Assembly (NCBI GenBank): GCA_007695035.1
Contig: REEO01000034.1
Span: 1 to 64,000, forward strand
Reading direction: 5' to 3'
From: Saprospirales bacterium
GTDB lineage: Bacteria; Bacteroidota; Bacteroidia; Chitinophagales; Saprospiraceae
DNA length: 64,000 nt
The notes beneath the pieces were generated by a model. The model made no database searches and was not told the origin of the DNA. It saw only the letters and a program-made list of their open reading frames with translations. Below are positions 9,534 through 46,192 of this stretch, piece after piece; the first letter of the stretch is position 1; each line of letters starts with the position of its first letter. A program made the translations under genes and the position numbers.

Positions 9534-12515
9534 TCAGGCTCCCCCACTTTCTCGGGGATCAACAATGGCCCGGTACACCTTATCCTGAATTCTTATCCGG
9601 TAATTATCCCTTATAAACTTCCTGTTTTCCATGGTTGGAAAGGTCCGGTTGGACAATATGACGAATATGAGCTGATCTTTGGGATCTGCCCAGGCAGCCG
9701 TTCCGGTAAATCCCAGGTGGCCAAATGTCCTGTATGAAGCGTACTCTGACATATTGGGTCTCCTGGCTTTGTTCAATTCCTGCATATCAAAACCTATTCC
9801 TCTGCGGGTTTCCATTTGGGGGCGGGTAGTAAAAAGGGACACCGTACCCGGGTCCACTAATCGAACTCCGCCGTAATATCCACCATTGAGCAGAGATTGC
9901 ATAAGCACAGCTACCTCAGTGGCATTGGAAAAAAGACCCGCATGCCCGCTTACGCCCCCCAGCATCGCCGCCCCCATGTCGTGTACATAACCCCGGAGTC
10001 GCTCTCCCCTGAAATAGCGGTCGTCCTCGGAAGGTACGATCTGATCTGGGCTGAATTTCTCCCTCGGATTGTACATCGTCCTGCGTAGATTGAGTGGGTG
10101 AAAAATCTCCCGATTGGCAAATTCATCAATGGGACTGCCACTCACCCTGTCGATCAACTCTGCCATCATGTAAAATCCCAGGTCACTGTATCGATATCTG
10201 TTCGCTCTACCCAGTGGAGAGTTGATGATCTCACTCCAAAGTACAGACGGATACTCTGAATTGATCCACAATTGATCGCTCACTCTGAGGGCATATTGCT
10301 CAGAAGGGCCTGAGTTGCTGTAAATTTCAGGGTCGTGCAGTATTCTGCCTCTGGTATTTTGTACGGTCTCCTGGTAAAAGGGAATCCACGCCTGCAATCC
10401 GGAGCGGTGAACCATGATGTCGTGTATCTGCAAAGGCCCCTTGTCCGACGCCCTTAACTCCGGCAGGTAATACCCAATATCCCTGAATACATTTAACCGA
10501 TCCCGGTCGGAGAGTATCATGGTACTGTAGGTGGTCGAAAGCACTTTTGTCAGTGAGGCAATGTCGTAAATGTGGTTGTGTTCCACGGGCTTAATTCTTT
10601 CATAAGTGTGGTACCCAAAAGAATGTCTGTAAACTATTTTGCCCTTTCTGGCCACCACAATTTGGCAGCCGGGGGCGGCTCTATCCGCAATCATCTCCTC
10701 CACCAACTTGTCAATTTCTTTAAGAGAATTGGAACACATCCCCACCCGTTCGGGAAGGACGAATCCCAGCCGGAACTGCGATGCAATGTCCAATCCATCC
10801 CCAGCCCAGGACCTATCAGATGCAGTTACGGGAAGTCTGCCTGTTATCGCGAAAGCCCCACTCAAGCCCTGAGCGGTAAAATCTCTGAACATCTCCCCAT
10901 CGTCATATGCGACAAGCACTGTCTCAACATCATCAAAAAACCTGAGCGAATACGGACTGCCAAAAATAACCAGTGCCACACGGCTGTGCGATGCGAGCCG
11001 GTTCACAAAGCCTATGGTGGAGTTTTTGAGGCCGTAATTACCCGACAAAAACCTGCCCATGTTGTGAAGTGACACTACCACAAGGTCGCTGTCGGAAAAC
11101 CGGGTTGCAAATTCCTGCGAGGACAATTGGAGATCGTCCTGCAAAAAGTGGTGGTGTTCCCAGTCGGCGTAATCGTCCAGTCGATGCTGAAATTTATTCT
11201 TGCCTGCGGTACCGATTGCTATGGTTGTGCGCTTTTTTTCGTTATCGAGGTCGATGGGAAAAATTTCCTGTTCATCCCTCACCAGGGTCAGTGCATTCTC
11301 GATTAATTCTGATTTCAGGGCGAGTGCTTTGGGGTGGTTGACTTCCTCGGTGAGGTTATCAAGTTCGACCGGTTCGTAATTATTGAGACCCAGAAAGTAC
11401 TTGGCAGACAGTATTTTTTTAACGCTCTCCTCCAGCCTGTCAGGGCTTAACCTGCCCTCTTCATAAGCTTTTTTCAATGCAGAAAAGGTCTTGTCCACAT
11501 CAGCGGGAAGGCAGATGATGTCATTGCCCGCCAAAATTGATTTCACCTCTGCCTCTCCGGCCGGAAAGTACTTTGTAACCCCTTTCATTTCCATTGCATC
11601 GGTTATGATCAGTCCCTTGAATCTCAGCTCCTCTTTCAGAATTCCTGTAACCACATCTTTTGAGAGCGTGGTGGGCATATTGGGGGTGGAATCGTAGGCG
11701 GGAATGTGCAGGTGGGCAATCATGATGCTCTGCAAGCCCTGGGGAATGAGTTGTTTGAATGGAAATAACTCGATACTGTCGAGTCTTTCGACGCTGTGGT
11801 TTATTACGGGTAGGTCAAAATGGGAGTCCACATCCGTATCACCGTGTCCGGGGAAGTGCTTTCCGCAGGCCATCACCCCGCCGTTTTGCAAACCGCGCAT
11901 ATAGGCGTGACCCTTAACAGCTACCTGCTCCTTCACCTCTCCAAAAGAACGGTCGTTGATCACCGGATTGGCCGGATTGTTGTTGACATCGATAACGGGT
12001 GCAAAATTGATATGTACTCCGATGCGGTTAAGTTGTCTGGCAATTTCGCGGCCTTTTTGATAAACCAGATTGTTGTCCTGGATGGCTCCGAGAGTGAGTT
12101 GTCTCGGAAAGGAGATTCCGTCCTCCCTGAATCGCATACCCAGACCCCACTCTGCATCCATTGCCACCAGCATTGGGATGTTCGAAAGTTCCTGGTATTT
12201 GTTGGTGAGCCGGGCTTGCTCTAGTGGATTGCCCTGAAAAAAGCACACAGCCCCTACGTGGTATTGCTCAATTTGCCGCTTTACCTCAGCGATGTGATTT
12301 TCTCCTAAATTGGAGTGTGCCCTGATCATAATGAGTTGGCCGATTCGCTCTTTCAGGGACATTTGATCGTAAACAGAGTCCACCCAATGGATTGATTTTT
12401 CGTCTTCGACCATTTGAATGGGCCATTGGGCAATGGCTGTGTTGTGCAGGGACAGCGACAGAAGGACGCCAATCACAAGAGAAACAGTAATTTTCGAATA
12501 AAATTTATTGACCAT
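9534..12515 (-). CDS. GH3 N-acetylhexosaminidase fused to a serine beta-lactamase-like hydrolase
   Basis: A 993-residue secreted protein with two catalytic modules. After a signal peptide (about 1-29), residues 45-380 form a glycoside hydrolase family 3 domain of the NagZ type: KHFPGHGDTDVDSH at 219-232 carries the Asp230/His232 acid-base dyad, and Asp306 in IITDAMEM is the expected nucleophile. A GH3 C-terminal-like region follows (about 400-590). Residues 598-980 form a class C beta-lactamase/DD-peptidase fold with Ser654-x-x-Lys657 (SLTK), Tyr776-Ser-Asp and a C-terminal HLGFTGT. It probably removes GlcNAc and trims peptides from muropeptides in the periplasm; this is inferred from the domains. 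Its start overlaps the end of the upstream glycosyltransferase gene by 11 bases, so the two are translationally linked. Confidence 0.93.
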   Translation of the reverse strand: MVNKFYSKITVSLVIGVLLSLSLHNTAIAQWPIQMVEDEKSIHWVDSVYDQMSLKERIGQLIMIRAHSNLGENHIAEVKRQIEQYHVGAVCFFQGNPLEQARLTNKYQELSNIPMLVAMDAEWGLGMRFREDGISFPRQLTLGAIQDNNLVYQKGREIARQLNRIGVHINFAPVIDVNNNPANPVINDRSFGEVKEQVAVKGHAYMRGLQNGGVMACGKHFPGHGDTDVDSHFDLPVINHSVERLDSIELFPFKQLIPQGLQSIMIAHLHIPAYDSTPNMPTTLSKDVVTGILKEELRFKGLIITDAMEMKGVTKYFPAGEAEVKSILAGNDIICLPADVDKTFSALKKAYEEGRLSPDRLEESVKKILSAKYFLGLNNYEPVELDNLTEEVNHPKALALKSELIENALTLVRDEQEIFPIDLDNEKKRTTIAIGTAGKNKFQHRLDDYADWEHHHFLQDDLQLSSQEFATRFSDSDLVVVSLHNMGRFLSGNYGLKNSTIGFVNRLASHSRVALVIFGSPYSLRFFDDVETVLVAYDDGEMFRDFTAQGLSGAFAITGRLPVTASDRSWAGDGLDIASQFRLGFVLPERVGMCSNSLKEIDKLVEEMIADRAAPGCQIVVARKGKIVYRHSFGYHTYERIKPVEHNHIYDIASLTKVLSTTYSTMILSDRDRLNVFRDIGYYLPELRASDKGPLQIHDIMVHRSGLQAWIPFYQETVQNTRGRILHDPEIYSNSGPSEQYALRVSDQLWINSEYPSVLWSEIINSPLGRANRYRYSDLGFYMMAELIDRVSGSPIDEFANREIFHPLNLRRTMYNPREKFSPDQIVPSEDDRYFRGERLRGYVHDMGAAMLGGVSGHAGLFSNATEVAVLMQSLLNGGYYGGVRLVDPGTVSLFTTRPQMETRRGIGFDMQELNKARRPNMSEYASYRTFGHLGFTGTAAWADPKDQLIFVILSNRTFPTMENRKFIRDNYRIRIQDKVYRAIVDPRESGGA

Positions 12516-29540: not shown

Positions 29541-30965
29541 TTACTTCTTTACGACCAGTACCTGTCCGATACTCAATTGGTTGTTTGTCAGACCGTTCAA
29601 TTCCATCAATTCTTCCACCGACATATCGTACTTTCTGGAAATGGCAAAAAGCGTTTCTCCGGGACTGACAGTATGCCTGAGCTTTTCAGCTTCGCTATTT
29701 TCTTCCCCGATTTTCCGGAGGTCAATAGATGTGGAAGATTCGGATTGCTCCGTTCTGCTGCTATTCGCCGATGATCCAACGGGGTCTTTCTCTAATTTTT
29801 GGGCAGCGGGTTCAGCATGGACACCGGTATCAGCGCTGGCAATTACATCCTTTGCATCGAATGCATCCACAGGTTTAAGGTCCTCAGGAGATTCCGGTTT
29901 TATCTCTTCTTCCTGGGTTGGTGGTCGGTAATTCTCAGGCCTGTACCTCACCGGTTGGTTTCTGTTACGCCTTCCTCTGAGGATAATGCGCTCCCCCACA
30001 GCCGGCTCGCGGTCCCGGTCCACCCTGTTTCTCCGATGGAGGGCGTTAAGTCTGATTCCATGAGCGTTGGCAATGTCAAACATTTCCTCTCCTTCGCGGA
30101 CCCGGTGAATTTCCCGGCCACCCCGGTAATTTCTTCGCTTGCGCTCCAAAAACACATACCGCTCCGAATCAAAGGTCTCAAATGCATCCTCGACCCCATC
30201 GTTAAACCTGAGTAATGCCCTGAGAGAAACCTCCAGTTCAAGGGCAATATCCGCTAGGGTTTCACCGGCATTGGCTTTAACTGCCGCCAGTCTGTTTATA
30301 GAGGTTTGTCTTCTCGGGGGCGGAGGTGCCTGGGTGCGGAAAAAGCCGCCGTCTTTTCTTTTTTCAGCCATTCTTTCTCTTAGCTCCTCCCTCTCTGAAG
30401 CAGACGCAAGTGGTCTCTCCATGTGATCCAATTCGTATAGGCTGTAATTTTCTATTACGTTGATCAGCAAATTGCCGTAGCGGCGATTGGTCGCATAGCC
30501 GGATTTTTGCAGTCCATGGGCCCACGCCTCGTAATCGGTGGGATCTAGATCAAACAACCATCCGTAACGCGATTGCCTGGAAGGTCCACTCAAAAATTCA
30601 GAATGAGCGATAAACGACTCCTCCACAGTTTGATAACTCCTGAAACAACTGGGAATCAGACGTCCATGGGAATCCCGGTCATCGTCCTTTTGATAGAAAG
30701 TCCTTCCATTCCAGTCATTCCCGCATTTGATACCAAAGTGGTTGTTGGCATTTACTGCCAATTTGCTGCGACCTGCATTGGATTCCAATATGGCCTGGGC
30801 CATTTTAATGCTAGCCGGTACGCCGGTGCGCTCCATTTCGGCAATTGCAATATCTTTGTAGGTGGCAATGTAGTCGTAAATAGCCTGGCGTCCATTGTCG
30901 GATGCCTGCAATTGGGGTGCTGCCATAATCAGCAGTACGAGGGGTAAAATCAATGTTGATTTCAT
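29541..30965 (-). CDS. Glucosaminidase with LysM domains (peptidoglycan hydrolase)
   Basis: A 474-residue secreted wall hydrolase. It has a signal peptide (1-21), then a glucosaminidase domain of the FlgJ/AcmA type at about 25-170: GVPASIKMAQAILESNAGRS with catalytic Glu61, and NNHFGIKCG. Residues 225-335 hold two diverged LysM-like repeats (ETLADIALELEVSLRALLRF; GEEMFDIANAHGIRLNALHR), followed by a low-complexity Pro/Glu/Ser linker and a canonical C-terminal LysM (about 430-474, HTVSPGETLFAISRKYDMSV). It cleaves GlcNAc-MurNAc bonds in glycan strands and probably acts in daughter-cell separation or wall remodelling, which is inference from the domain layout. Confidence 0.93.
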   Translation of the reverse strand: MKSTLILPLVLLIMAAPQLQASDNGRQAIYDYIATYKDIAIAEMERTGVPASIKMAQAILESNAGRSKLAVNANNHFGIKCGNDWNGRTFYQKDDDRDSHGRLIPSCFRSYQTVEESFIAHSEFLSGPSRQSRYGWLFDLDPTDYEAWAHGLQKSGYATNRRYGNLLINVIENYSLYELDHMERPLASASEREELRERMAEKRKDGGFFRTQAPPPPRRQTSINRLAAVKANAGETLADIALELEVSLRALLRFNDGVEDAFETFDSERYVFLERKRRNYRGGREIHRVREGEEMFDIANAHGIRLNALHRRNRVDRDREPAVGERIILRGRRNRNQPVRYRPENYRPPTQEEEIKPESPEDLKPVDAFDAKDVIASADTGVHAEPAAQKLEKDPVGSSANSSRTEQSESSTSIDLRKIGEENSEAEKLRHTVSPGETLFAISRKYDMSVEELMELNGLTNNQLSIGQVLVVKK

Positions 30966-32324: not shown

Positions 32325-33773
32325 TTACCTGAAGAGGACGAGGTTGTGCATCCGGCCATTGGCCACGATGTACCTGTATTCTCCTTGCTTTTCCATCAAA
32401 AGGGCTGCATTTTTTCCAAGCATGGGAAATTCAGGGCGCTCTTCCTCAGGTCCGAGCACCACAAAAGGCATTATGCGCTGCAAACTTTCAGGGATGGGTC
32501 CATCGAGCCGGAAGTAAGTATATCCCTCTTGCAGTCGCTCTGCCCAGATGCTGTTCGCCAGCTCTTCCGAACTTTTAAAAACTTCCGGCCAAATTTCGCC
32601 CTGTTTCAGGGTAAAACCGGATGCATCGTATTCAGTGTAGGCGCCGAATGTAGAAAGGTCTCCCACATCTACCAATCTGGGGCCGATTTCCGGGGAACCC
32701 ACGTGGCCGTCTCCAAAAACGATATGGTCTCTGTATCCCAGGTCCAGCACAAAAGTCCCCTCGGGTAATTCAACTTCTGCATTTCGTATTACCAAATCAA
32801 ATATGGAGATGCGATTGGCAGGAATGGATTCGTAGGCCTCCCGGCTGTAGTTTTTGAAGTCTCCATCGGCAATGCTGAAAAAGGAGCTCATGAGGATGGT
32901 GAAGTGAAGTTTTCGCAAGTACTGTTTTTCGGGGTCGTCCCTGTATCCACCGGATTCGATTAAAATAGTGGAGGTTCCCCAGCGCTGCATGTTGTCTCCG
33001 AAGGCCCTCGGCTCAAAGGCATCGCTGAATTTTGCCACCTTTCCCGGTGCGTATTCCTGCACTATTTCATTGAGTTGCGCAATCAGCTTCATGGCATTCA
33101 GGCGCTGTTTGTTGACCTCCCGCTCCTGATTGTAGGCCGGAGCGAGAAAGGCAATTGCCACAGGCTTACCGGAAAACCCGGCTCCATAATACAGGCTTTG
33201 ATCGTGCAGATTGAAACCAAAATCGGGATTGTAGCGGTCTCGAACGTCCTTGAGTATCACAGATTCCGGACTCTGCAATCTCTGTGCATCGCGGTTCAGG
33301 TCCACATCCAGTGCGTTTCTCCTTTTGTAAACCTCTGCCCCATCGGGATTAACCATCGGGAGAAACAACAAAGTGACTTTTTCTGCCAGTTCCTCTTTTA
33401 TTTCTTCGTTTTCGTCCGAGGCAAGGAAGTTGAAAATATCGGCAACGGCCATGGTCGCGGTAGGTTCATTGCCGTGCATCTGGGTCCACAGGTACACCTT
33501 TTTGGGTCCGCTGCCCCATTTTACCAAATAAATACTCCGTCCCTGTACGGACTCTCCCTCCAAATTGACCTCAAAATCCGGGTGGTCTTTAAGATTGACT
33601 ATTAGCGGTTCCACATCGCTGTGGGTAAAAAATCGATCTTCCAAACTGGCCTCCCGGTATTCTTCGTGAATTTCATAAAACCACTGGTGATCCTGAGCTA
33701 CCAGCGAGGAAAAGAAGAAGGACAGAACAACCAAGATCAAAGTCAAGCGCATTGCAGTAGAGTTTTTTGTCAA
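32325..33773 (-). CDS. M14 family zinc carboxypeptidase
   Basis: A 482-residue secreted metallopeptidase with a signal peptide (8-27, ending in LVAQ). The M14 zinc site is His100-x-x-Glu103 (MHGNEPTA) and His190 (FNLHDQS). Asn160-Arg161 (DVDLNRDAQ) match the substrate carboxylate-binding pair, and Glu273 (ILIESGGYRDD) the general base. The C-terminal 190 residues are an added beta-rich region. Targets may be dietary or cell-wall peptides; the subfamily resembles M14 enzymes next to tricorn-type proteases in Bacteroidota, but the substrate is not determinable. It is divergent from dacB, with 63 bases between start codons. Confidence 0.92.
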   Translation of the reverse strand: MTKNSTAMRLTLILVVLSFFFSSLVAQDHQWFYEIHEEYREASLEDRFFTHSDVEPLIVNLKDHPDFEVNLEGESVQGRSIYLVKWGSGPKKVYLWTQMHGNEPTATMAVADIFNFLASDENEEIKEELAEKVTLLFLPMVNPDGAEVYKRRNALDVDLNRDAQRLQSPESVILKDVRDRYNPDFGFNLHDQSLYYGAGFSGKPVAIAFLAPAYNQEREVNKQRLNAMKLIAQLNEIVQEYAPGKVAKFSDAFEPRAFGDNMQRWGTSTILIESGGYRDDPEKQYLRKLHFTILMSSFFSIADGDFKNYSREAYESIPANRISIFDLVIRNAEVELPEGTFVLDLGYRDHIVFGDGHVGSPEIGPRLVDVGDLSTFGAYTEYDASGFTLKQGEIWPEVFKSSEELANSIWAERLQEGYTYFRLDGPIPESLQRIMPFVVLGPEEERPEFPMLGKNAALLMEKQGEYRYIVANGRMHNLVLFR

Positions 33774-33836: not shown

Positions 33837-35207
33837 ATGCCGGGAGCTTGTTTCAGTAGTATTCATAATTTCCTCGCGACATTGGCCGCCTGTTTGATGC
33901 TGGTTGCTGCCTGTAAATCGCCTGCACATCTGTCGAGATCTGACAAGCGCAGCCTGGATGAAAAAGTCACGCAATCTGCCGTTTTTGAAAATGGATTTTC
34001 GGCCCTTCATTTGATAGAGGCAGAGACCGGGGAGGAAATCTACAGTCTGCGAGGCGGAAAGCATTTTACACCGGCCTCCAATATCAAAATCCTCGCACTC
34101 TTCACCGCCCTGAAAACACTCGGGGACTCATTACCCCTTTTTCACTACGCAACCGCAGGTGATACCACAATCATCTATCCGAACGGAGGACCCACTCTTT
34201 TCAATCCTTTTTTCCCAGGAGAGGAGAAAGCTGAGCAAAAACTGTTGGAATTGCTGTCCGGGAATGCAGTCGGAATAGCGGAGGTCCATTTTGACGGCAA
34301 CCGATTTGGTCCGGGATGGACGTGGGATGGTTATCCGCACAATTATCAGACAGAGCGCAGTGCCTTTCCCCTTTACGGAAACAGGGTGGAATTTGTCTTC
34401 CTGCCCGGCGAAAAAGAGCCCTTGGTCTCACCTGAATTTGCACAATCCCGGGTCGCTTTTAAAAAGCCGAATGAGGATTTTGTCAGAGATGTTATGACCT
34501 GGCGAGAGGAGAAAAGCAACGAATTTTACTACTACAGTGATGGAAGCAATGAAGATTCTATCAAGCGATATGTACCATTTATTACAGATTCCGAGACTTT
34601 ATTGGAACTACTGGGAAGTAAGGGCACGGCTGAGCTTTTCTTCCTGGATAACGAGGGTCCTTCGGTGGAAGAAAAACACACCCTTTTTTCGGCCTTTCCC
34701 GATTCCATATACCGCAGAATGATGTGGCAAAGCGATAACTTTTTAGCCGAACAGCTTTTGATCGCCGTGGCCGGGGAGGTTTTTGACAGCCTGGATGCGC
34801 AACTTGCCATTGATTACGCCCTGGATAGCTTTTTTTCCGATGTACCGGATATTATCAATTGGTACGATGGCTCCGGACTTTCGCGCTACAATTTGATAAG
34901 TCCGAGGACGCTGACCTATATTTTACATCACCTATTTGAGGAGTACGGAATGGACAAAGTAGAGGAATTTTTCCCGGCAGGGGGGCGCTCGGGAACCATC
35001 AGGAACCGCTACGCCGGGAATGGGTCTCCCTTTGTTTTTGCAAAAACGGGCACCCTGAGAAACAACCACAGCTTGAGTGGATACCTGAAAGCAGAAAGTG
35101 GAAAAGTCTATATTTTCAGCTTTATGCACAGCAATTTCCCTGGTTCATCCATTCCCCACAGGGAGGAGATGGAATCCATTCTCCGTTTTTTGTACAGAGC
35201 TTTGTGA
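33837..35207 (+). CDS. dacB: D-alanyl-D-alanine carboxypeptidase/endopeptidase (PBP4 type, S13)
   Basis: Class C low-molecular-weight penicillin-binding protein that removes terminal D-Ala or cuts peptide cross-links in the periplasm. The three active-site motifs are in order: Ser81-x-x-Lys84 (ASNIK), Ser299-Asp-Asn301 (QSDNFLAEQ) and Lys403-Thr-Gly405 (AKTGTL). The region between the first and second motif (residues 90-290) is the insertion typical of S13 enzymes, somewhat shorter than in E. coli PBP4. A lipobox-like LVAAC (Cys26) ends the hydrophobic N-terminus, so it may be a lipoprotein. The 456-residue length is close to the family norm. Confidence 0.92.
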   Translation: MPGACFSSIHNFLATLAACLMLVAACKSPAHLSRSDKRSLDEKVTQSAVFENGFSALHLIEAETGEEIYSLRGGKHFTPASNIKILALFTALKTLGDSLPLFHYATAGDTTIIYPNGGPTLFNPFFPGEEKAEQKLLELLSGNAVGIAEVHFDGNRFGPGWTWDGYPHNYQTERSAFPLYGNRVEFVFLPGEKEPLVSPEFAQSRVAFKKPNEDFVRDVMTWREEKSNEFYYYSDGSNEDSIKRYVPFITDSETLLELLGSKGTAELFFLDNEGPSVEEKHTLFSAFPDSIYRRMMWQSDNFLAEQLLIAVAGEVFDSLDAQLAIDYALDSFFSDVPDIINWYDGSGLSRYNLISPRTLTYILHHLFEEYGMDKVEEFFPAGGRSGTIRNRYAGNGSPFVFAKTGTLRNNHSLSGYLKAESGKVYIFSFMHSNFPGSSIPHREEMESILRFLYRAL

Positions 35208-36687: not shown

Positions 36688-38508
36688 ATGGTGATACTTG
36701 GCAAAAAACAATTCAGGATTGCCTCCAAAATCTGCTTGGTAATACAACTGAGCTGCATTGTGCTGGCAATGGTCTTCCCCAGTCCGCTGGCCGCTAGCTC
36801 ATCCGAAGAGGAAGGGGTCAAAGCTATCCTTGAAAGTGTCGATGAGAAACTCAGGCTCGGCGAGTACGAAATTTTGAGGCAGAATTTGGTCTTGGCCCTG
36901 GAAAAATCTAATAGGATAGAAAATGAGCTATTGAAAGCAAGAGTGTATAACCAATTGGGCATACTGAACATCTATGAATACCGTTTTCCCGAAGCACTGT
37001 CCAATTTGCAAAATGCATTGACTATTTTTGAAACCCACGACAAAGCCGAAGGAGTGGCAGAGTGCTACAACAACATTGCCTCTATTCACCTGAGTTTGAA
37101 CAATTATTCCCAGGCTAAGCAGTACTACCGTCTCAGCATGGAGATACGTGAAAAAGGTGATGACCCTGGAAGTTTGGGAGTTGTTTACAACAATTTGGGA
37201 ATTGTATTCACCCATATGAACAAATTGGATTCAGCCCTTTATTATCACCACAAAAGTCTGGAGATATTGGAGGCTATTGAGGACTTTTCACGTATTGCTG
37301 TCACCCTCATCCACATAGCTCGAATTGTGAAAGAACAAGGTGATCTTGACACTTCCATGGATTTACTGAGGGAGAGTTACGAATTGTTGGAATCCGATCC
37401 AAAAAGGAGAATATCCACCAAAGAAGTGGTTCAGTCCGAAATAGGACTTTTATTTTCCCTGTCAGGCCAATATGAGAAAGTGCTGGAATGGTGCAGTGAC
37501 TTGTGCTGGGATGTAGAATATACCAGCTCCAAAATAAGTGCCCAAAATTGCTGCAATGCTCTGCATTTGGCCTTTGTTGGATTGGGGGATCATGAAAAAG
37601 CCCTGGCTGCACATATGAATTATGTGAGAATCGGAGAAGATATGCTGTCCAATCAGGCTATTCAGGAAGTAACCAGATTGGAACTGAACTACGCATTCGA
37701 TCAAATTCACAAGGCCGACAGCCTGAGGTTTGAAAGTGAAAGTCAACTTCAACAGGAGAGAATTAACCGACAGAGGATGGGCCTGATGGCTGCCATTGGA
37801 ATCTTGATTTTGGTAAGTATGCTCGCTGTAATCGTGGTGAAGGGAAAAAGGAGAAGTGAAGAATTGTTGCTTAATATACTTCCCGCCACTGTGGCAAGTG
37901 AACTGAAAAAGACCGGAAAATCAGTGCCCCGAAAATACGATCTTGTAACTGTTATTTTTGCTGACATAAAGGAGTTTACGAATATTTCCGAAAAACTGAG
38001 CCCGGAGGAATTGATTCAGGAGATCAACACCATTTTCACCTCCTTTGATAGAATTGTGGATAAGCACGGTATTGAGAAGATCAAAACCATTGGCGACTGC
38101 TACATGGCTGTATGCGGGTTGCCAGATGAGAATAAAGACCACGCCTTAAAAAGTGTGCAGGCTGCCATTGAAATGCAAGAATTTATGAGGGAGAACAACC
38201 GCAGAAAAAAGGACACATCCGGGAATCCCATTTTTGAGATAAGGATTGGATTGCATTCTGGTCCGGTGGTTGCAGGCATCGTGGGAACCAAAAAGTTTCA
38301 ATACGACATTTGGGGGGATACGGTCAATACCGCCAACCGACTCGAAACTGCTTGCAAACCTGGCAAAATCAATATCTCTGAATCAACTTACAAGCTGGTT
38401 GAGGGTAAGTTCAATTGTGAATGCCGGGGAAACATAGATTCAAAGGGAAAAGGTAAGATTTCCATGTTCTATGTAGAACATTCTGACTCAGCAGGTGATG
38501 ATACCTAA
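36688..38508 (+). CDS. Class III adenylate cyclase with N-terminal TPR domain
   Basis: A 606-residue membrane signalling protein. An N-terminal hydrophobic segment (signal or anchor, about 11-34) is followed by five to six TPR units (about 60-340; e.g. AECYNNIASIHLSLNNYSQA), a membrane helix at 364-383 and a class III cyclase domain at about 415-600. The catalytic residues are complete: metal-binding Asp426 (FADIKEFT) and Asp470 (TIGDCYMAV), transition-state Asn547 and Arg551. Lys466 and Asp540 are the pair that selects adenine in adenylate cyclases, where guanylate cyclases have Glu and Cys. It should therefore make cAMP in response to something bound by the periplasmic TPRs. Its own promoter lies directly upstream. 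Confidence 0.93.
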   Translation: MVILGKKQFRIASKICLVIQLSCIVLAMVFPSPLAASSSEEEGVKAILESVDEKLRLGEYEILRQNLVLALEKSNRIENELLKARVYNQLGILNIYEYRFPEALSNLQNALTIFETHDKAEGVAECYNNIASIHLSLNNYSQAKQYYRLSMEIREKGDDPGSLGVVYNNLGIVFTHMNKLDSALYYHHKSLEILEAIEDFSRIAVTLIHIARIVKEQGDLDTSMDLLRESYELLESDPKRRISTKEVVQSEIGLLFSLSGQYEKVLEWCSDLCWDVEYTSSKISAQNCCNALHLAFVGLGDHEKALAAHMNYVRIGEDMLSNQAIQEVTRLELNYAFDQIHKADSLRFESESQLQQERINRQRMGLMAAIGILILVSMLAVIVVKGKRRSEELLLNILPATVASELKKTGKSVPRKYDLVTVIFADIKEFTNISEKLSPEELIQEINTIFTSFDRIVDKHGIEKIKTIGDCYMAVCGLPDENKDHALKSVQAAIEMQEFMRENNRRKKDTSGNPIFEIRIGLHSGPVVAGIVGTKKFQYDIWGDTVNTANRLETACKPGKINISESTYKLVEGKFNCECRGNIDSKGKGKISMFYVEHSDSAGDDT

Positions 38509-38579: not shown

Positions 38580-39254
38580 TTAGCGCTCTTCCCCTTCATT
38601 TTCATCGCTACCCTCTTGTTGATTTGTATCCCCATGAGGATCGTATAAATACACCCACCGATCAGCACAAAGAGGTGGACATGGTTGAGTCTCCAATTCA
38701 TGCGTTCGTCTTCTTTCGCTTGAATAGGCGTAAGCGTAAAGCGCTACAGTGGGATAAATTGAATCCGCAGTCACGCGGTATTCGTCCGGGTGAAGGACCA
38801 TCTCATCAAATCCACGCGGCATATCCCTTTTTGAAATTTCAGATATCATATTTGAAATGCTCCTGTCGTGATTGACATAACCGGCAAACTGTATTGCCTG
38901 TTCGTGGCTTATTGATTGATGTGTCCCCCGTTCATCCAGATATATATAACCCATGTCGTTTGGTTCGTTGAGTTCTACTCCGTCGCTGTTGACAGCAACT
39001 AGAATCACTCCGCTTCTTTGTCCTCTTTCATCAATCATCGCATTGTAGAATCGGAGACTTTCGGCTATGTCCTGGTTCAGAAGACCCCAGATTACTTGAG
39101 AATCCACAGTTAATGAGTCAAATCCGATGTTAAATTCCTGAACTACGGTTTTATCATTTGGCTCCTCAACTTCGTTGGGTTGGTTATCCATCCAGATGAA
39201 CCATACTCCAATGATAATTGCTATAACAATAAGCGCGGCAAGTAATTTTTTCAT
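38580..39254 (-). CDS. Membrane-anchored protein of unknown function
   Basis: A 224-residue protein with a single N-terminal hydrophobic helix (residues 3-22) acting as an uncleaved anchor or signal, then an acidic linker (NQPNEVEEPNDKT) and a soluble domain of mixed character. Notable are a run with DMGYIYLDERGTHQSISHEQ and a late CPPLCADRWVYLYDPHG with two close cysteines, followed by an acidic tail. I recognise no family. It converges on the adenylate cyclase gene (71 bases between stops). It could be a cargo or partner protein, but nothing in the sequence supports a particular role. Confidence 0.7.
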   Translation of the reverse strand: MKKLLAALIVIAIIIGVWFIWMDNQPNEVEEPNDKTVVQEFNIGFDSLTVDSQVIWGLLNQDIAESLRFYNAMIDERGQRSGVILVAVNSDGVELNEPNDMGYIYLDERGTHQSISHEQAIQFAGYVNHDRSISNMISEISKRDMPRGFDEMVLHPDEYRVTADSIYPTVALYAYAYSSERRRTHELETQPCPPLCADRWVYLYDPHGDTNQQEGSDENEGEER

Positions 39255-39587: not shown

Positions 39588-40661
39588 TCACGGAATACCT
39601 ATGGCCTCCACCAATTCCTCAATATCCTCCTCTCTATGAAGAGAATTCAACACTACTCTGGTGATTTTCGGATCATTGGGTCCCGGGTAGTTGAAGGCGG
39701 AAATTACAATTTGCTTTTGGAGCAGATCGCGGTCCTTGTCGGGGTCTTTGCAGTGGAAAACCGGAAAGTGGTCGAGGTGGTGGAAGTGGTCATCAGTTTT
39801 TATCAATCTGTGCAGCAATGAAATATTACTTCTCAGTTTTTGAAGTTGTTTTTTATACAGAGAACGACCTTTCGTCCATGCATACAAGAAGGCCGGATTG
39901 GGGGGAGAACTACCACCGAATATCCTCGTTGCCCTCAGTTTTTCTATGGTGTTGCTATCTCCCAGTACATAACCTGCAGGGATGCCCATACCCTTCCCAA
40001 GGGAACCCATAAACAGCGTTTTTCCGGCTAATGAACCAGACCAGGAAGCAAATGAACCCGCACCCGACGGCCCCATGACCCCAATTCCATGACTGTCGTC
40101 AGCCACTACGGTAATCCGCTCGGGCTCTGCGGCCTTTTTCAGCCAGCCCATGTCTATTTTTTTGCAAAAAAGCGGATCTATGGTGTTGGATAGTACGATA
40201 GCTTTGCCTCTGTATTCCCTTAGTTGTTCGAGGGTTTGCTCCTCCCAGAGGCTGCGCGGCATGTCAGCTGGCGGGTGGAAATTTTTCCACAGCGCAGAAT
40301 GCGTACCTGGGGCAACGAATATCCGGCTTTCCGCAGGCACTTCCTGAGTAAGCACATAACCAGCAAATGAACCAGAGGATAGCAACAGTGCGCTTTCTGC
40401 ACCACATAATAGGGCGAGTTTTTCCTCCGCCCTTTCGAAAATATCGATTTTTACATTGCTCAAACGGCTGCCGCCAAAATGGGTGCCGATACGGTCTATT
40501 CCCTCTTTTATCAACTCCTTGAAGGCGGGCAATTGACTTATGCCCAAATAGGAAGTGCCACTGAAATACAGCATTTCCCTTCCATCGTGGTGAATGGTTC
40601 TGCCGGGAAGTCGTTCCGTGACAAGGGGTGTTTCAATTCCAGTCTTTTTTCTCGCTCCCAT
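39588..40661 (-). CDS. PLP-dependent enzyme of the AONS/KBL (class II aminotransferase) family
   Basis: A 357-residue fold-type I PLP enzyme related to 8-amino-7-oxononanoate synthase and 2-amino-3-ketobutyrate CoA ligase. The PLP lysine is Lys223 (MGSLGKGMGIPAG), with Asp189 and His191 (ADDSHGIGVMG) contacting the cofactor, and the GGSRLSNVKID stretch (63-73) matches the family. It lacks the N-terminal segment of typical BioF and is encoded with a dipeptide epimerase and an LD-carboxypeptidase, not with biotin genes. It probably acts on an amino acid released by that pathway; the reaction is unknown. It starts 82 bases after the epimerase stop. Confidence 0.85.
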   Translation of the reverse strand: MGARKKTGIETPLVTERLPGRTIHHDGREMLYFSGTSYLGISQLPAFKELIKEGIDRIGTHFGGSRLSNVKIDIFERAEEKLALLCGAESALLLSSGSFAGYVLTQEVPAESRIFVAPGTHSALWKNFHPPADMPRSLWEEQTLEQLREYRGKAIVLSNTIDPLFCKKIDMGWLKKAAEPERITVVADDSHGIGVMGPSGAGSFASWSGSLAGKTLFMGSLGKGMGIPAGYVLGDSNTIEKLRATRIFGGSSPPNPAFLYAWTKGRSLYKKQLQKLRSNISLLHRLIKTDDHFHHLDHFPVFHCKDPDKDRDLLQKQIVISAFNYPGPNDPKITRVVLNSLHREEDIEELVEAIGIP

Positions 40662-40743
40662 TCAGCTGCTGTAATTTGCAGTCATACCCATCACCTCCTG
40701 CAAAATCCCGGCCAAAAATTGGATGGGTTGGTTGGGATGGTCC

Positions 40744-41754
40744 TTACTTCAAAAAGCAACCCAGGCCAGGTGTATCGGGAAATTCAATATTCCCCCGGTC
40801 AACGACCACACCGCCTGCCGGATCATTGGAGAGTAGGGCGGCACCGTCCAGGTCCACGTAATCGAATAAAGGGCTGAGGTGCGCCATGGCGGAAATGCCC
40901 ACGGAAGATTCGGTCATACAGCCTCCCATAACCTTTAAGCCGAGAGACTTGGCGCGCCTTATCATTTCCAGGGCGGGTGTAATACCTCCGCACTTCATCA
41001 ATTTGATGTTGATTCCGTCAAACCACTGCATGCACTTTGCCACATCGCCTGGTCTGCTGCAGCTTTCGTCTGCGATAACGGGTACGCTGCTGGAATGGCG
41101 GGATTTGTCCAGGTTGTTCTCCATACCGACCGGCAGGGGCTGCTCAATCAGGTCCACATTCAGGTCCTTGAGGGTGGAGTAATCTTCATATAGGTAGTGG
41201 GGATCCCAGGAGCCATTGGCGTCGATGCGGAATACAGCATCGTTGGTTTCGCGTAGCTTTTTGACCAGTTCGAGGTCATTTCTGGAAGAGAGCTTGATTT
41301 TATAGATGGACCAGGGAGCGGCATCCATTTTTCGCTTCATCTCTTCAAAAGTTCCATAACCTATGGTGTAACTGGAAATGGGGGTACTGCCGTCCTTCAT
41401 CTTGAGAATTCCCCGCACACTTCTCCCCTTCTTTTTTCCAAACCAATCCCATGCTGCACAATCAATGGCGGAGAGCAAAAAGGAATGGCCGCGTAGTTTG
41501 GGTTCTGCAATCTTCCACAGGTCCTCAGGCCAGGCCCAATCAGCGGTGGATAGTGTATCAGCAACTTCATTAAATTTTTTCTTGAGACCTTCCAGACTCA
41601 CTCCCAGATAGGGAATAACGGTGGCTTCACCATAACCCTTTATACCGTCTCTTTCGAGTTCCACGATCATGGTGTCTCGATATTCATAACTTCCATGAGA
41701 GATGGTAAAGGTGTCTTTTAATTCAAGGCGATATGTAGCAAAAGATAATTTCAT
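40744..41754 (-). CDS. Dipeptide epimerase (L-Ala-D/L-Glu epimerase type)
   Basis: Enolase-superfamily enzyme of 336 residues. The catalytic lysines are Lys152-x-Lys154 (KIKLS) on one face and Lys251 (INIKLMKCGG) on the other; metal ligands are Asp178 (RIDANGS), Glu204 (LIEQPLP) and Asp229 (VIADES). The D-x-D at 300-302 (VDLDG) matches the dipeptide-specificity motif of L-Ala-D/L-Glu epimerases, which act on the murein dipeptide L-Ala-D-Glu. No signal peptide, so cytosolic. It lies between the LD-carboxypeptidase and the AONS-like gene, with 68 bases to the former, which fits a murein-peptide salvage pathway. Confidence 0.93.
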   Translation of the reverse strand: MKLSFATYRLELKDTFTISHGSYEYRDTMIVELERDGIKGYGEATVIPYLGVSLEGLKKKFNEVADTLSTADWAWPEDLWKIAEPKLRGHSFLLSAIDCAAWDWFGKKKGRSVRGILKMKDGSTPISSYTIGYGTFEEMKRKMDAAPWSIYKIKLSSRNDLELVKKLRETNDAVFRIDANGSWDPHYLYEDYSTLKDLNVDLIEQPLPVGMENNLDKSRHSSSVPVIADESCSRPGDVAKCMQWFDGINIKLMKCGGITPALEMIRRAKSLGLKVMGGCMTESSVGISAMAHLSPLFDYVDLDGAALLSNDPAGGVVVDRGNIEFPDTPGLGCFLK

Positions 41755-41822
41755 GGATTTTACTGGTTTAAACGCATTTAAGCCCGGGAAACGGATGTTT
41801 ATCCGGGCATTTAAGATTCTAT

Positions 41823-42881
41823 CTAAGTTTTTACAGGAGATTCGAGTAAATAAAGTGATTTGCGGTCTGCGTCCAATTCCGCCTCAATACCCATAGGCAG
41901 GGTGAACTGGTTTTTTATATGACCAAAGGAAAGTCCGTAAACTGCAGGGATCTCCAACTGCTCGATGCGGTCTCTCAGGGTTTCTTCCAGACTCAAGGAC
42001 CGGCTGCCCTTTTCTTTGTCGCAGGCATTACAAATTCCAAATGCAATACCGGCGGCACTTCTCAGGTTGGTAGCCTGAAGCAACTGGGTGAGCATGCGGT
42101 CGATTTTGTAAGGTTTTTCACCCACATCCTCAATAAATACGATTCGGTCCTTGAATGAACCCAGGTATGGAGTCCCGCAAAGTGAGGCCAAAAGCGATAA
42201 ATTACCCCCGGTCAGTTTCCCGCTAGCGTGTCCACCACTGATGGTAAACGAACGGAATTCGGTTCGCCCCCTGCGGTTTTCTCCCTGGTCTTCCGCAGAT
42301 TCCAATTTCATCGGAAAATCGGACTGTCCGCTAATCAGTGGCAAAAAATGGTTTTTATTGAATTTGGTGAATTCGCTGGCAGCTACAGGACTGTGAAACC
42401 CAACCAAACCGGATTTCAGACTGAATGCATTAAGCAGGGAGGTGATGTCACTGAATCCCGCAAACACCTTTGGGTTTTCGCGCAATAAGCGATAGTCAAT
42501 TTTTTCCAACAGTCGGGTGGTTCCATATCCTCCGCGAAGACACCAAATACCATGGACTTTGGGATTCCTGAACATATCGTGCAGGTCGTAAAGTCGCTCC
42601 CTGTCAGTGCCTGCCAGATAGCCTTTTTGGCGGTGCAAATGCCTGCCCTCCAACAACCTGAATCCGCACTTACTGATATTTTGAACCGCCCTTTCGTAAC
42701 GCTCCGCATCAAAGGAACTGGCAGGCGCGATCAATCCAACTGTATCACCGGGATTTAGCGGGTAGGGTTTGATTTTTTTCAGTGGGGAGGAGGTTTTACC
42801 TGGTGTGTGAATTCCCACACCGCCCATCAACAACCCTCCGGTACCCATTGCCACCATTTTTCCAAAATGTCTCCGGTCCAT
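41823..42881 (-). CDS. LD-carboxypeptidase (S66) with a Tat-like signal
   Basis: Serine peptidase of family S66 (LdcA/MccF type), 352 residues. The catalytic triad is Ser144 (AGFSDIT), Glu251 (VFIEDVGEKPYKID) and His321 (LSFGHIKNQ); the LRGGYGTTRLL stretch at 115-125 builds the active-site wall. LdcA removes D-Ala from murein tetrapeptides. Unlike the cytosolic LdcA of E. coli, this protein begins with MDRRHFGKMVAMGTGGLLMG, which has a twin-arginine motif followed by a hydrophobic segment, so it is probably exported in folded form. It precedes the dipeptide epimerase gene. The Tat call is inferred from the motif. Confidence 0.92.
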   Translation of the reverse strand: MDRRHFGKMVAMGTGGLLMGGVGIHTPGKTSSPLKKIKPYPLNPGDTVGLIAPASSFDAERYERAVQNISKCGFRLLEGRHLHRQKGYLAGTDRERLYDLHDMFRNPKVHGIWCLRGGYGTTRLLEKIDYRLLRENPKVFAGFSDITSLLNAFSLKSGLVGFHSPVAASEFTKFNKNHFLPLISGQSDFPMKLESAEDQGENRRGRTEFRSFTISGGHASGKLTGGNLSLLASLCGTPYLGSFKDRIVFIEDVGEKPYKIDRMLTQLLQATNLRSAAGIAFGICNACDKEKGSRSLSLEETLRDRIEQLEIPAVYGLSFGHIKNQFTLPMGIEAELDADRKSLYLLESPVKT

Positions 42882-42931: not shown

Positions 42932-45900
42932 TCAGTCCCCATCTCCTGCTTTTTCAAGAAGCAATTCAACGGCCCTCATCAATTGTGGATCCTCACCATT
43001 GGCTTTGGCATCCACCGGATTCTCCACATGGTGGTCGGGTACAGCGGGTCCGTTCTCCATGTTTTCATTGGTCTCGAGTACGAACCACCCGCGGAAGGGC
43101 ATCCTCACCAGTGAGCCGTCAATCAATCTGTGTCCACCGGTGCTTATTACTGCTCCAAAAGTGGGCTGTCCCACGAGTTCGCCGTGGCCCAAATGCTGAT
43201 AGGCGTGTGCGAATATCTCTGCATTGGAGTAACTGCTCTCGTTGATCAGCGTAATTGACGGCATCATCAAAACCGGGTAGGGAAGCCTTTCTGTATAGGG
43301 GTAATTGTCCCTGAATTGCTCCTTGTCACGCTCCAGGTCATCCGTGGCACTCCTTGGAATGGTGTAGGAGTGCTGGCGGGCATTTAAAATGGTCATCAGC
43401 AGATCGGTGGTAAATCCTCCGCCGTTGTACCTTACGTCTATCACAATGCCATCTTTCCCATGTCCACTGGCCATGAGTTCTCTTTCAAAGCGCTCAAAAC
43501 TCGGCATATTCATGCCCTGAATGTGAATGTATCCCAATCTGCCATTGGAGGCAATTTCGGTCATCTCCCTTCGCTGATCGACCCACTCTTCGTAAAGTTG
43601 GCGATTGATGGCCGGGGTGGGTCTGATAATCACCTGCCTCTTTTCTCCATCGGTGCCCTCCACTTGCAGGGCCACTCTTTCATTGGCTGTTTCATCCAGA
43701 TGCTTGAAAAAGTTTTCATCTGCGTGGACCCGGTGACCGTTTATTCTCCTGATTATCTCACCTTCTTCCAACCGGCTATTGCTCCTGGAGGCGGGCGTTC
43801 TGGGAATCACTTTTTCGACCCGCATACCGTCTTCGACCGGCACCAATTCCACACCGAGCCTACCGGTGCGATCTGCCTGGGTCTCTTCGGGATTGCCGCC
43901 AAACATCCCCAGGTGACTGGCGTCCAATTGCCCCAGCATGTGGTTGAACATATCTCTGAAATCCTGTCTGGTACTTGCAGCCAAAGCTTTGGGTTTAAAT
44001 CGCTCCTGCAAGGCTTCCCAGTCCCTTCCGTGAAATTGGGGGTCGTAAAAACCCATTCCAAATATGCGGACGGCCTCCTCGAACATTTGGTCCATTTCTT
44101 CCACATGACGTATGGTCATGCGCGCTGAATAGGGAATATTGTCAGGTCTGCCACCGGAGGCTGAGATTTTCATCAACCGGCCGCGCTCCAAATAGTAAAT
44201 GTGGCTTCCATCATCCGAAAGGCTCAGTGCACCTCCCCGGAAATTATCGGCCAGGGTTTCTCTGTCTGATCCATCCCACTTAATGGAGTAAAGGGTGTTG
44301 CCATTAATGCCCGTACCTGTGAAGTAAAAAGTTTCACCGTCGGGCGATACCATCACATTCCACTCGTTTCCGGCATCGCGGGTGACCTGGACCAGCCTGT
44401 CATGAATGCGGTCAAAATCGATAATGACCTCGAGTTCCTCCTCTTCCTCCTCGTCTTCATCGTCGTCATTGCCATTGTCGGAAGGTGGAGGTGGTGGGGT
44501 TTCGTCTCCAAAAATATCCAACTCGGTCCACTCCGCACGGGTCCTTTCCCAGTCTTCCTCCTGCAACCAGACAAACCAAATGTCAAAGTCCTGATTGTTT
44601 CTGTCCGACACAAATGCGAGTTTGCTTCCGTCTGGACTCCAGTAAGGGCTGAGATCGCGCCTCGGGTGCATACTTATATTTACTGGTTCGGTCGAATTGT
44701 CAGCGGCGTGTATGTAGATTTCTGTATTAAAGTTCAAATCCGGCAGTGAATATGCCAGCCACTGATCGTCGGGACTCCAGGCGAGGCCCTGAGGAGTGGC
44801 CCAACCGTCCAACAGCTCAACCTCACTGGTAATATTTCCCAATTCATCAATATCTGCAGTAATTAGTGTGCCTCTACCCGATTGAATGGCAATTTGCTCC
44901 CTGGAGTTGGACAATTGAAAACTGAGCACATCTTCTTCCATTTCCGTCAGCTTCACTATTTCCCGATCCAGTGTTCTGAATATATCCCCCCGGTCAGGAT
45001 CGGAGGAGCGTGCTGCATAGAGTTCAAACTGGCCGTCGCGATCCGATACGAAAAGGAGGGTGGAATCGCTCAGCCAGGTTGGTTGGTGGTCTCTGGCCGG
45101 ATGATCGGTAATGGAAACGGTATGTCGGTGGTCTTTGTCGTTCAGGGTGAGGAATATCTCACCGCGAATGGTCAGGGCAGCGTATTTTTCGTCCGGTGAG
45201 ATAGCGTATTGATTCGCATCCGAATTAAAGGTTTTCTTCTCCTCGGGGTAAAACCTGAAATCCCGTGTTACCCGAATATCCAGGGGCTCAACCTCTCGTG
45301 AGCTCACGTCCAGAGTAAACAAGCCAATTCCCCTTTCGAAAATCACGTTTTCTCCATCCCTACTCACGTCAAAATGCCGAATACCTCCCTCCACAAAATC
45401 GGTAATTTGCTCTGGTTGGCCCACACCTTCACCGGTTTCACTTATTTCCCATCTGTAGAGATTGTAAGTCCCGGTTTCGGAAGACAGGTAGTACAACGTG
45501 CGTTCTGCCCAACGGGGCTTTACAAACATGGCACCTCCATCGGTCAGCGCCTGGTAGCTTTCGCTTTCGGTATGGTAGATGTAAAGATCTCTGGCCGCAG
45601 GTCCGGTGTAGGGTTCGCGGTTGGTGGGTGCGGTGCCCCGCTCGAAGGCGATCAGGCTTCCGTCCCCGGTTGGAGTGGGGTTAAAACCCAGTGCCCCCAT
45701 AGCCCTGTAAGGGTTTTTATTGTCTGGGTCCAGGCGGTATATCTCCCACTCTCTTTCTACCGATGCGAAGCTTCTCCGTGTGTTAAAGAATAGGGTGCCG
45801 TCCTCCTGTATGCCCGGATTGGTATTGCTGGCAGAGTGGAAGGTAAGGCGCTCTATTCCACTGCCATCCACACTTACCTTGAAAAGGTCAGTGCTTCCGT

Positions 45901-46192
45901 GTCGATTTCCCGAAAAAATGATTTCTTCGCCATCACGGCTGAATACAGGATTGTTTTCATAGCTCTCATGTAGGGTGAGACGAAGGGCCTGACCGCCATC
46001 CGCATCCGCAACCCAGATGTCACCCTGGTAGGAAAATGCAATGCGGTCCGCTTCGGGGCTAATGGCCGGCTGTCTGGCCAGAAACATCTCCTGTGAGAAG
46101 AGTGTTTCTCCGAAGGAGGTAATCGTAAAAAGAATAGCTGTAAAAAGGCTGAGGGGAATTTTGAATGGTTTCATATTACGCTTTATTTTCAA
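42932..46192 (-). CDS. Tricorn-type S41 peptidase with beta-propeller and PDZ domain
   Basis: A 1086-residue exported protein. A signal peptide (to about residue 34) precedes a beta-propeller of WD40-like/TolB-like blades (about 35-590; e.g. PAISPEADRIAFSYQGDIWV, YAALTIRGEIFLT), a low-complexity acidic linker near 575-600 (Pro run, then Glu/Asp run), further propeller blades, a PDZ domain (about 770-860), and a C-terminal S41 protease core with the candidate nucleophile Ser989 in ESSYSNAEIF. This is the architecture of tricorn-protease homologues, which in archaea trim peptides; a signal peptide makes this one periplasmic. It starts 180 bases from uvrC on the other strand and lies 50 bases upstream of the LD-carboxypeptidase gene. 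Confidence 0.93.
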   Translation of the reverse strand: MKIKRNMKPFKIPLSLFTAILFTITSFGETLFSQEMFLARQPAISPEADRIAFSYQGDIWVADADGGQALRLTLHESYENNPVFSRDGEEIIFSGNRHGSTDLFKVSVDGSGIERLTFHSASNTNPGIQEDGTLFFNTRRSFASVEREWEIYRLDPDNKNPYRAMGALGFNPTPTGDGSLIAFERGTAPTNREPYTGPAARDLYIYHTESESYQALTDGGAMFVKPRWAERTLYYLSSETGTYNLYRWEISETGEGVGQPEQITDFVEGGIRHFDVSRDGENVIFERGIGLFTLDVSSREVEPLDIRVTRDFRFYPEEKKTFNSDANQYAISPDEKYAALTIRGEIFLTLNDKDHRHTVSITDHPARDHQPTWLSDSTLLFVSDRDGQFELYAARSSDPDRGDIFRTLDREIVKLTEMEEDVLSFQLSNSREQIAIQSGRGTLITADIDELGNITSEVELLDGWATPQGLAWSPDDQWLAYSLPDLNFNTEIYIHAADNSTEPVNISMHPRRDLSPYWSPDGSKLAFVSDRNNQDFDIWFVWLQEEDWERTRAEWTELDIFGDETPPPPPSDNGNDDDEDEEEEEELEVIIDFDRIHDRLVQVTRDAGNEWNVMVSPDGETFYFTGTGINGNTLYSIKWDGSDRETLADNFRGGALSLSDDGSHIYYLERGRLMKISASGGRPDNIPYSARMTIRHVEEMDQMFEEAVRIFGMGFYDPQFHGRDWEALQERFKPKALAASTRQDFRDMFNHMLGQLDASHLGMFGGNPEETQADRTGRLGVELVPVEDGMRVEKVIPRTPASRSNSRLEEGEIIRRINGHRVHADENFFKHLDETANERVALQVEGTDGEKRQVIIRPTPAINRQLYEEWVDQRREMTEIASNGRLGYIHIQGMNMPSFERFERELMASGHGKDGIVIDVRYNGGGFTTDLLMTILNARQHSYTIPRSATDDLERDKEQFRDNYPYTERLPYPVLMMPSITLINESSYSNAEIFAHAYQHLGHGELVGQPTFGAVISTGGHRLIDGSLVRMPFRGWFVLETNENMENGPAVPDHHVENPVDAKANGEDPQLMRAVELLLEKAGDGD

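Follow-up and report, generated by a model that had tools for sequence, protein, structure and literature searches.

A conserved pyridoxal-phosphate enzyme subfamily in a putative murein-peptide salvage cluster of a Saprospirales bacterium

We report the analysis of three genes from a Saprospirales bacterium (GenBank assembly GCA_007695035.1; 3.35 Mb in 107 contigs, 96.6% complete), which lie within positions 1 to 64,000 of contig REEO01000034.1, the whole of this stretch being referred to here as the window. They encode an LD-carboxypeptidase, a dipeptide epimerase and an enzyme dependent on pyridoxal phosphate (PLP), and are candidates for a murein-peptide salvage set. A first-pass annotation of the sequence had noted that the three are consecutive on one strand, and all three open reading frames were recovered at their coordinates on that strand (Table 1), with products that match Pfam models above the cut-offs. 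The carboxypeptidase and epimerase genes are 68 bp apart and the epimerase and PLP genes 82 bp, and no terminator-like site was detected on the minus strand between the genes, in a promoter and terminator scan that overall returned no more sites than shuffled sequences. The trio consists of known folds in a known pathway; what is new is the conserved subfamily to which the PLP enzyme belongs, and this subfamily is our main subject.

The gene cluster and its conservation

The first enzyme carries both domains of peptidase family S66 (PF02016 and PF17676, at 129.5 and 126.7 bits against cut-offs of 25 and 23.7), and amongst proteins of solved structure it is closest to S66/MccF-type proteins and to murein tetrapeptide carboxypeptidases; the curated model PRK11253 gives it 173.8 bits, below the cut-off of 378. 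It would, by its family, cleave the L-D bond of the tetrapeptide, a prediction to be read with the presence of MccF-like proteins amongst its solved relatives. The N-terminus reads MDRRHFGK and continues into a hydrophobic stretch (maximum 15-residue Kyte-Doolittle mean of 1.53 within the first 45 residues), which the epimerase and the PLP enzyme lack (-0.01 and 0.71), so that the twin-arginine signal is indeed, as first annotated, a feature of the carboxypeptidase only. Furthermore, RRxF stands at the N-terminus of every one of the 18 related LD-carboxypeptidases that are distinct and complete at their start (20 rows from the loci described below, less L048, whose start is cut off, and the duplicate L033), and the genome encodes TatC (221 bits). 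Export of the carboxypeptidase by the Tat route is a well supported prediction.

The second enzyme is a putative epimerase of the L-Ala-D/L-Glu type, with the Pfam domains MR_MLE_C (101.8 bits) and MR_MLE_N (38.4 bits) above their curated cut-offs. All 34 aligned relatives (a set that leaves out L033, L052 and L072) share K152, K154, K251, D178, E204, D229 and D301-x-D303, and YcjG of E. coli has these catalytic, metal-binding and D-x-D residues at the same alignment columns; we take the lysines to be catalytic, the D/E/D residues to be the metal ligands and D301/D303 to hold the N-terminal amine of the dipeptide. The best solved relative is 3iji (202.7 bits; also 3ijl and 3ijq), which bears the database name muconate cycloisomerase and which we believe to be a dipeptide epimerase of Bacteroides thetaiotaomicron. 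The curated Ala-Glu epimerase models score below their cut-offs (PRK15129, 146.4 against 343 bits; A_G_epim_Thtga, 117 against 500 bits), and the assignment of glutamate specificity is provisional. The top NCBIfam match is DgcA, at 218.6 bits against a cut-off of 400; identity with DgcA, an N-acetyl-Glu racemase, is not favoured, since the cut-off is missed and the D-x-D pair is kept throughout the 34 rows.

To examine the gene order in relatives, 64 loci were laid out, of which 63 are distinct, L033 being dropped as a copy of L047 (both are 8,881-base contigs with equal gene lengths). Epimerase adjacency was counted with tblastn, and the epimerase of L072 (G001:C87:43667-44671) is included in the counts. 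The epimerase gene lies directly upstream of the PLP gene, on the same strand, in 36 of the 63 loci, drawn from four families (f1, f16, f55 and f68), and the full trio, with the carboxypeptidase ahead of the epimerase, is present in 13, all of them in f1; two further loci, L050 and L082, are cut short by the contig end upstream of the PLP gene, where any epimerase would have gone unseen. Amongst additional loci, three of four have the epimerase upstream. The spacing of the two genes can be very tight, from -4 to +5 bp in L112-L114, L117, L121, L130 and L132 among others. The order is therefore not unique to this genome, and its recurrence in relatives indicates that the arrangement is more than chance.

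Five cell-wall-peptide families recur in the 63 regions fetched around the PLP gene, namely the epimerase (36 regions), S66 (19), Beta-lactamase2-type serine hydrolases (14), S13 carboxypeptidases (13) and M15 dipeptidases (4), and at least one of the five is present in 46 regions. In 13 of 61 carrier genomes an S13 gene and the PLP gene share a contig and are no more than about 8 kb apart; the carriers have between 0 and 5 S13 matches each, some of which are two pieces of one gene. S66 is over its cut-off in 58 of the 61 carriers, and only the family to which the window belongs has it in the vicinity of the PLP gene; its location elsewhere outside that family neither helps nor harms a salvage reading.

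Two variant arrangements were observed. In three loci of genus g191 in f16 (L118, L128 and L131) the place ahead of the PLP gene that the epimerase has in other families is taken, at a distance of 6-8 bp, by a glyoxalase/VOC-family gene; the epimerase is encoded elsewhere in their genomes. Four loci of f41 (L119, L120, L123 and L126) have the PLP gene after an S13 carboxypeptidase gene, directly in L123 and otherwise with an esterase and/or a GH18 gene between, and a VanX-like M15 gene nearby.

At the family level the genomes divide sharply: the PLP subfamily is present, at E<=8.5e-49, in 38 of 150, among them this one, and the next match is at 2.6e-24. A 36-row profile found it at 276 bits or more in 25 of 395 genomes of a class sample and in 36 of 395 genomes of a phylum sample, all 36 within the class; eight other phylum matches under 1e-40 reach at most 164.5 bits, close to the scores of BioF structures (140 bits). 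A search beyond the phylum returned ten loci, two of which belong to the subfamily (35-36% identity) and have titles naming Bacteroidota, the other eight being at 23-28% identity. Amongst the genomes searched, the subfamily is thus seen in one class only.

The association with the epimerase extends to the whole genome. Within the 150 family genomes, 33 of the 38 PLP carriers have an epimerase at E<=1.5e-60, against 27 of the 112 non-carriers (Fisher p 7e-12); at E<=2.5e-45 the figures are 34 of 38 and 37 of 112 (p 8e-10). These p-values treat related genomes as independent, which they are not. Twelve of the 17 carriers without an adjacent epimerase hold one elsewhere in the genome (E<=2.6e-46). 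The PLP gene is nearly always accompanied by an epimerase gene in the genome, and the epimerase often occurs without the PLP gene.

A gene for a tricorn-core/S41-type protease lies 50 bp ahead of the carboxypeptidase gene, on the same strand, and is possibly the first gene of the transcript; a homologue stands beside the trio solely in L064, from the same genus, among the loci laid out. Other genes of the window are listed in Table 1.

Table 1. Coordinates of the trio and of other genes in the window
Feature	Position	Strand	Length	Evidence and remarks
LD-carboxypeptidase (peptidase family S66)	41823-42881	-	352 aa	Pfam; Tat-type start MDRRHFGK; predicted exported
Dipeptide epimerase, putative L-Ala-D/L-Glu type, enolase superfamily	40744-41754	-	336 aa	Pfam; predicted cytosolic
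PLP enzyme, alpha-oxoamine-synthase fold, own subfamily	39588-40661	-	357 aa	Aminotran_1_2; predicted cytosolic
Tricorn-core/S41-type protease	42932-46192	-		PD40, Tricorn_C1, PDZ_Tricorn and Peptidase_S41 matches
S13 D-Ala-D-Ala carboxypeptidase (DacB-like)	33837-35207	+		PF02113, 117.5 bits; about 4.4 kb from the PLP gene
GH3 glycosidase fused to class C beta-lactamase-like domain	9534-12515	-		PF00933 and PF00144; likely cell-wall enzyme
Glucosaminidase with LysM domains	29541-30965	-		Further cell-wall enzyme close to the trio
M14 carboxypeptidase	32325-33773	-		Head to head with the S13 gene; further cell-wall enzyme near the trio
TPR protein with C-terminal adenylate/guanylate cyclase domain	36688-38508	+		Adjoins the cluster
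Protein with a single N-terminal hydrophobic stretch	38580-39254	-	224 aa	Downstream of the PLP gene; no Pfam match

The PLP subfamily and its residues

The PLP enzyme belongs to a distinct subfamily of a known fold, that of the alpha-oxoamine synthases (AOS), and the NCBIfam library searched contains no dedicated model for this subfamily. It matches Pfam Aminotran_1_2 above the curated cut-off (51.4 bits) and reaches the cut-off of no NCBIfam model, with 100.6 bits against 426.45 for bioF (TIGR00858) and 45.1 against 493 and 62.9 against 460 for the KBL models TIGR01822 and PRK06939, respectively. All 36 members of subfamily alignment A1 (which leaves out L052, L082, L033 and L034; alignment A3 leaves out L039) match bioF, the best E-value being merely 4.6e-35. 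In a quick IQ-TREE run on 62 subfamily rows, a set that excludes L033 and L052, and 31 other AOS rows, the subfamily forms one clade with an SH-aLRT support of 100.

The distribution of bioB and the presence of a separate KBL point the same way. A separate AOS gene of this genome groups with E. coli KBL (support 100), and bioB is not over its cut-off in this genome, at its 96.6% completeness, the same model being over the cut-off in 7 of 14 control genomes. No bioB is over the cut-off in 39 of the 61 carrier genomes, this one included, and in the 22 that have it the gene is either on a different contig or separated from the PLP gene by over 300 kb.

Two side observations concern the other AOS genes of the genome. 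The KBL-grouping gene adjoins a gene read as an NAD-dependent epimerase, and at L061:4811-7167 a CysK-like gene is followed by an AOS gene read as of the SPT/cysteate type, which we presume may be a sulfonolipid pair.

Comparison of the 62 subfamily rows with the 31 AOS rows, in BioF numbering, shows which residues of the fold are kept and which are lost. His133, Asp204, His207 and Lys236 are present in 62 of 62 rows and Arg361 in 61; we take these to include the stacking His, the PLP lysine and the carboxylate-binding Arg of AOS, and K223 and R335 of the window protein are expected to be the PLP lysine and taken to be the carboxylate Arg, respectively. Elsewhere the subfamily departs from AOS: Asn47 (30/31 AOS rows) is Thr in 60/62, Gly81 (31/31) is Ile, Leu or Val in 48/62, the His86 position holds Tyr or Phe in 61/62, Phe178 (29/31) is Asp in 47/62, Ser179 (25/31) is Pro in 31/62, Gly182 (31/31) stays Gly in just 7/62, and the position of Arg260 (29/31) is a gap in 62/62. 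The AOS motif E/D-G-V-F-S-M-x-G is mostly replaced by N-S/A-x-D-P-L, and the residues ahead of Tyr49 number 27 in the median, against 51 in the AOS rows. None of the charged residues with a conservation of at least 90% in A1 is peculiar to the subfamily.

An AlphaFold2 model of the PLP enzyme (pLDDT 82.9, pTM 0.85) has KBL, BioF, SPT and ALAS as its nearest folds (Z 35.9, rmsd 2.8 over 348 residues), a match that is partly expected, since the input alignment of the model held 7 AOS sequences. The subfamily profile, for its part, matches BioF structures best (140 bits). The first-pass annotation had called the enzyme like KBL or 8-amino-7-oxononanoate synthase, and was right as to the fold; the likeness does not extend further, as the subfamily branches separately and no longer has residues common to most of the AOS compared, which makes condensation with acyl-CoA not the favoured reaction.

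The role of the PLP enzyme

The suggestion that the trio is a murein-peptide salvage set whose first enzyme carries an export signal was already made at first annotation, and it is strengthened by the RRxF motif of the related carboxypeptidases, the conserved gene order and the co-occurrence of epimerase and PLP gene. A place for the PLP enzyme in cell-wall peptide metabolism is, in our judgement, very probable. In the pathway that we envisage, the Tat-exported carboxypeptidase would, judging by its family, take the terminal D-Ala off stem tetrapeptides outside the membrane; further cleavage and uptake of the peptides, not seen here, would follow; the cytosolic epimerase would then convert L-Ala-D-Glu to L-Ala-L-Glu, as its family and its kept active-site residues suggest; and the PLP enzyme would act on a freed small amino acid. 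This would most likely be alanine, coming either as D-Ala by way of the carboxypeptidases or as L-Ala out of the dipeptide, and the reaction would be the Calpha-deprotonation half of AOS chemistry without an acyl-CoA partner, such as that of an alanine racemase or aminotransferase.

We prefer this reading, of Calpha chemistry on alanine of the racemase or aminotransferase type within a murein-peptide salvage module, but tentatively and at somewhat short of an even chance. Alanine is favoured because S66, S13 and M15 peptidases, which are recurrent neighbours, would release D-Ala according to their families, because the epimerase route ends in L-Ala, and because the lack of a subfamily-specific conserved charged residue leaves no obvious binding partner for the second carboxylate of a substrate. 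A reaction without acyl transfer is favoured by the changed AOS residues, by the short N-terminus and by the neighbours, no acyl-carrier or acyl-CoA gene being found when one member of each of 11 of the 23 neighbour clusters that recur in at least four loci was passed through Pfam. More tentative again is the evolutionary proposal that a Bacteroidia-specific family has arisen from acyl-transferring AOS, has lost the acyl-CoA reaction and now serves as a dedicated cell-wall-alanine enzyme (a fold-type I alanine racemase or D-alanine aminotransferase) that shares an operon with the epimerase and, in one family, also with the exported LD-carboxypeptidase.

Several points weigh against this preference. 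The enzyme retains the AOS fold together with the stacking His and the carboxylate Arg, and those of its listed relatives that are characterised are acyltransferases. For the residues that it has lost, a part in acyl-CoA binding is our own assumption. A regular alanine racemase, Alr, is encoded in the genome (132.8 bits), for which reason we rejected the PLP enzyme as the sole alanine racemase, and a further racemase would need a catabolic role. The tightest partner of the PLP gene is the epimerase, the product of which holds L-Ala and L-Glu and not D-Ala. The 27-37 of 112 non-carriers that have the epimerase alone imply that the pathway can do without the PLP enzyme; conversely, five carriers (G018, G046, G073, G125 and G515) lack a close epimerase and have as best matches weaker enolase-superfamily proteins, at 1.1e-34 to 4.0e-22. 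Finally, of the 27 loci without a directly upstream epimerase, 10 have another cell-wall peptidase-type gene and 17 have none of the five families, some of these 17 regions being just 4-10 kb long.

The main rival of the non-acylating alanine reading is a true AOS, in which L-Ala or L-Glu from the dipeptide would be joined with acyl-CoA or an acylated acyl carrier protein to give an aminoketone, the short N-terminus accommodating an unusual acyl donor. Its nearest structures and the kept Lys, His, Asp, His and Arg are those of such enzymes, and an L-glutamate-bound AOS crystal (Alb29, 8xha) is among the structural neighbours. We nevertheless judge it less likely, given the alteration of residues common to most of the 31 AOS rows, the absence of acyl genes from the scanned neighbour clusters and the nature of the conserved partners, which are peptidases and the epimerase.

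Somewhat less likely again is a role on another murein substrate, whether meso-diaminopimelate, L-/D-Glu or the dipeptide itself, for instance as an aminotransferase or epimerase. The overlap or very short spacing with the epimerase gene in several families does suggest a shared substrate or product, but the subfamily has no conserved charged residue of its own for a second carboxylate or amine, and the carboxylate Arg, if its assumed role holds, is easier to reconcile with a free amino acid than with a dipeptide.

A coincidental neighbourhood, with the PLP enzyme unrelated to murein peptides, would account for the 17 loci in which none of the five families is seen, but it is improbable in view of the directly upstream epimerase across four families and of the genome-wide co-occurrence. 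Least probable of all, and by our estimate very nearly negligible, is an ordinary BioF or KBL located here by accident, which we rejected: bioF is the best curated model and BioF structures are the best structural matches of the profile, but the model cut-offs are missed, the clade is separate, KBL has its own candidate in the genome, and bioB is below cut-off in most carriers and remote in the others.

Comparison with known systems

To our knowledge, the recycling of murein beyond the Proteobacteria has been little described. Within the literature searches made, no open-access paper was found on AOS together with peptidoglycan recycling, nor on a dipeptide epimerase together with an LD-carboxypeptidase or 8-amino-7-oxononanoate synthase, and in the titles and beginnings of abstracts listed by further searches nothing on this gene set was seen.

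The closest known counterpart of the cluster is the murein tripeptide recycling of E. coli (LdcA, MpaA and YcjG), with which it has homologues of the LD-carboxypeptidase and the L-Ala-D/L-Glu epimerase in common; in E. coli, too, ycjG adjoins the gene for another murein-peptide enzyme, mpaA. Unlike in E. coli, the genes here follow directly on one another, the carboxypeptidase bears a Tat-type signal and there is an additional PLP enzyme, and we know of no description of E. coli murein recycling that includes such an enzyme. A conserved, unassigned enzyme beside a murein dipeptide epimerase points to a missing step. The D-glutamate catabolism of DgcN/DgcA offers a second comparison, in that the epimerase scores best to DgcA, yet it misses that cut-off and retains the D-x-D pair.

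With the AOS (BioF, KBL, SPT, ALAS, CqsA and cysteate acyltransferase) the PLP subfamily shares the fold and the catalytic His, Asp, His, Lys and Arg; it differs from them in its low identity (15-23%), its length of about 350 amino acids with a shorter N-terminus, the change of several residues and its position in a clade of its own. If the reading preferred here is true, the subfamily could show how an acyltransferase scaffold has been turned to another reaction.

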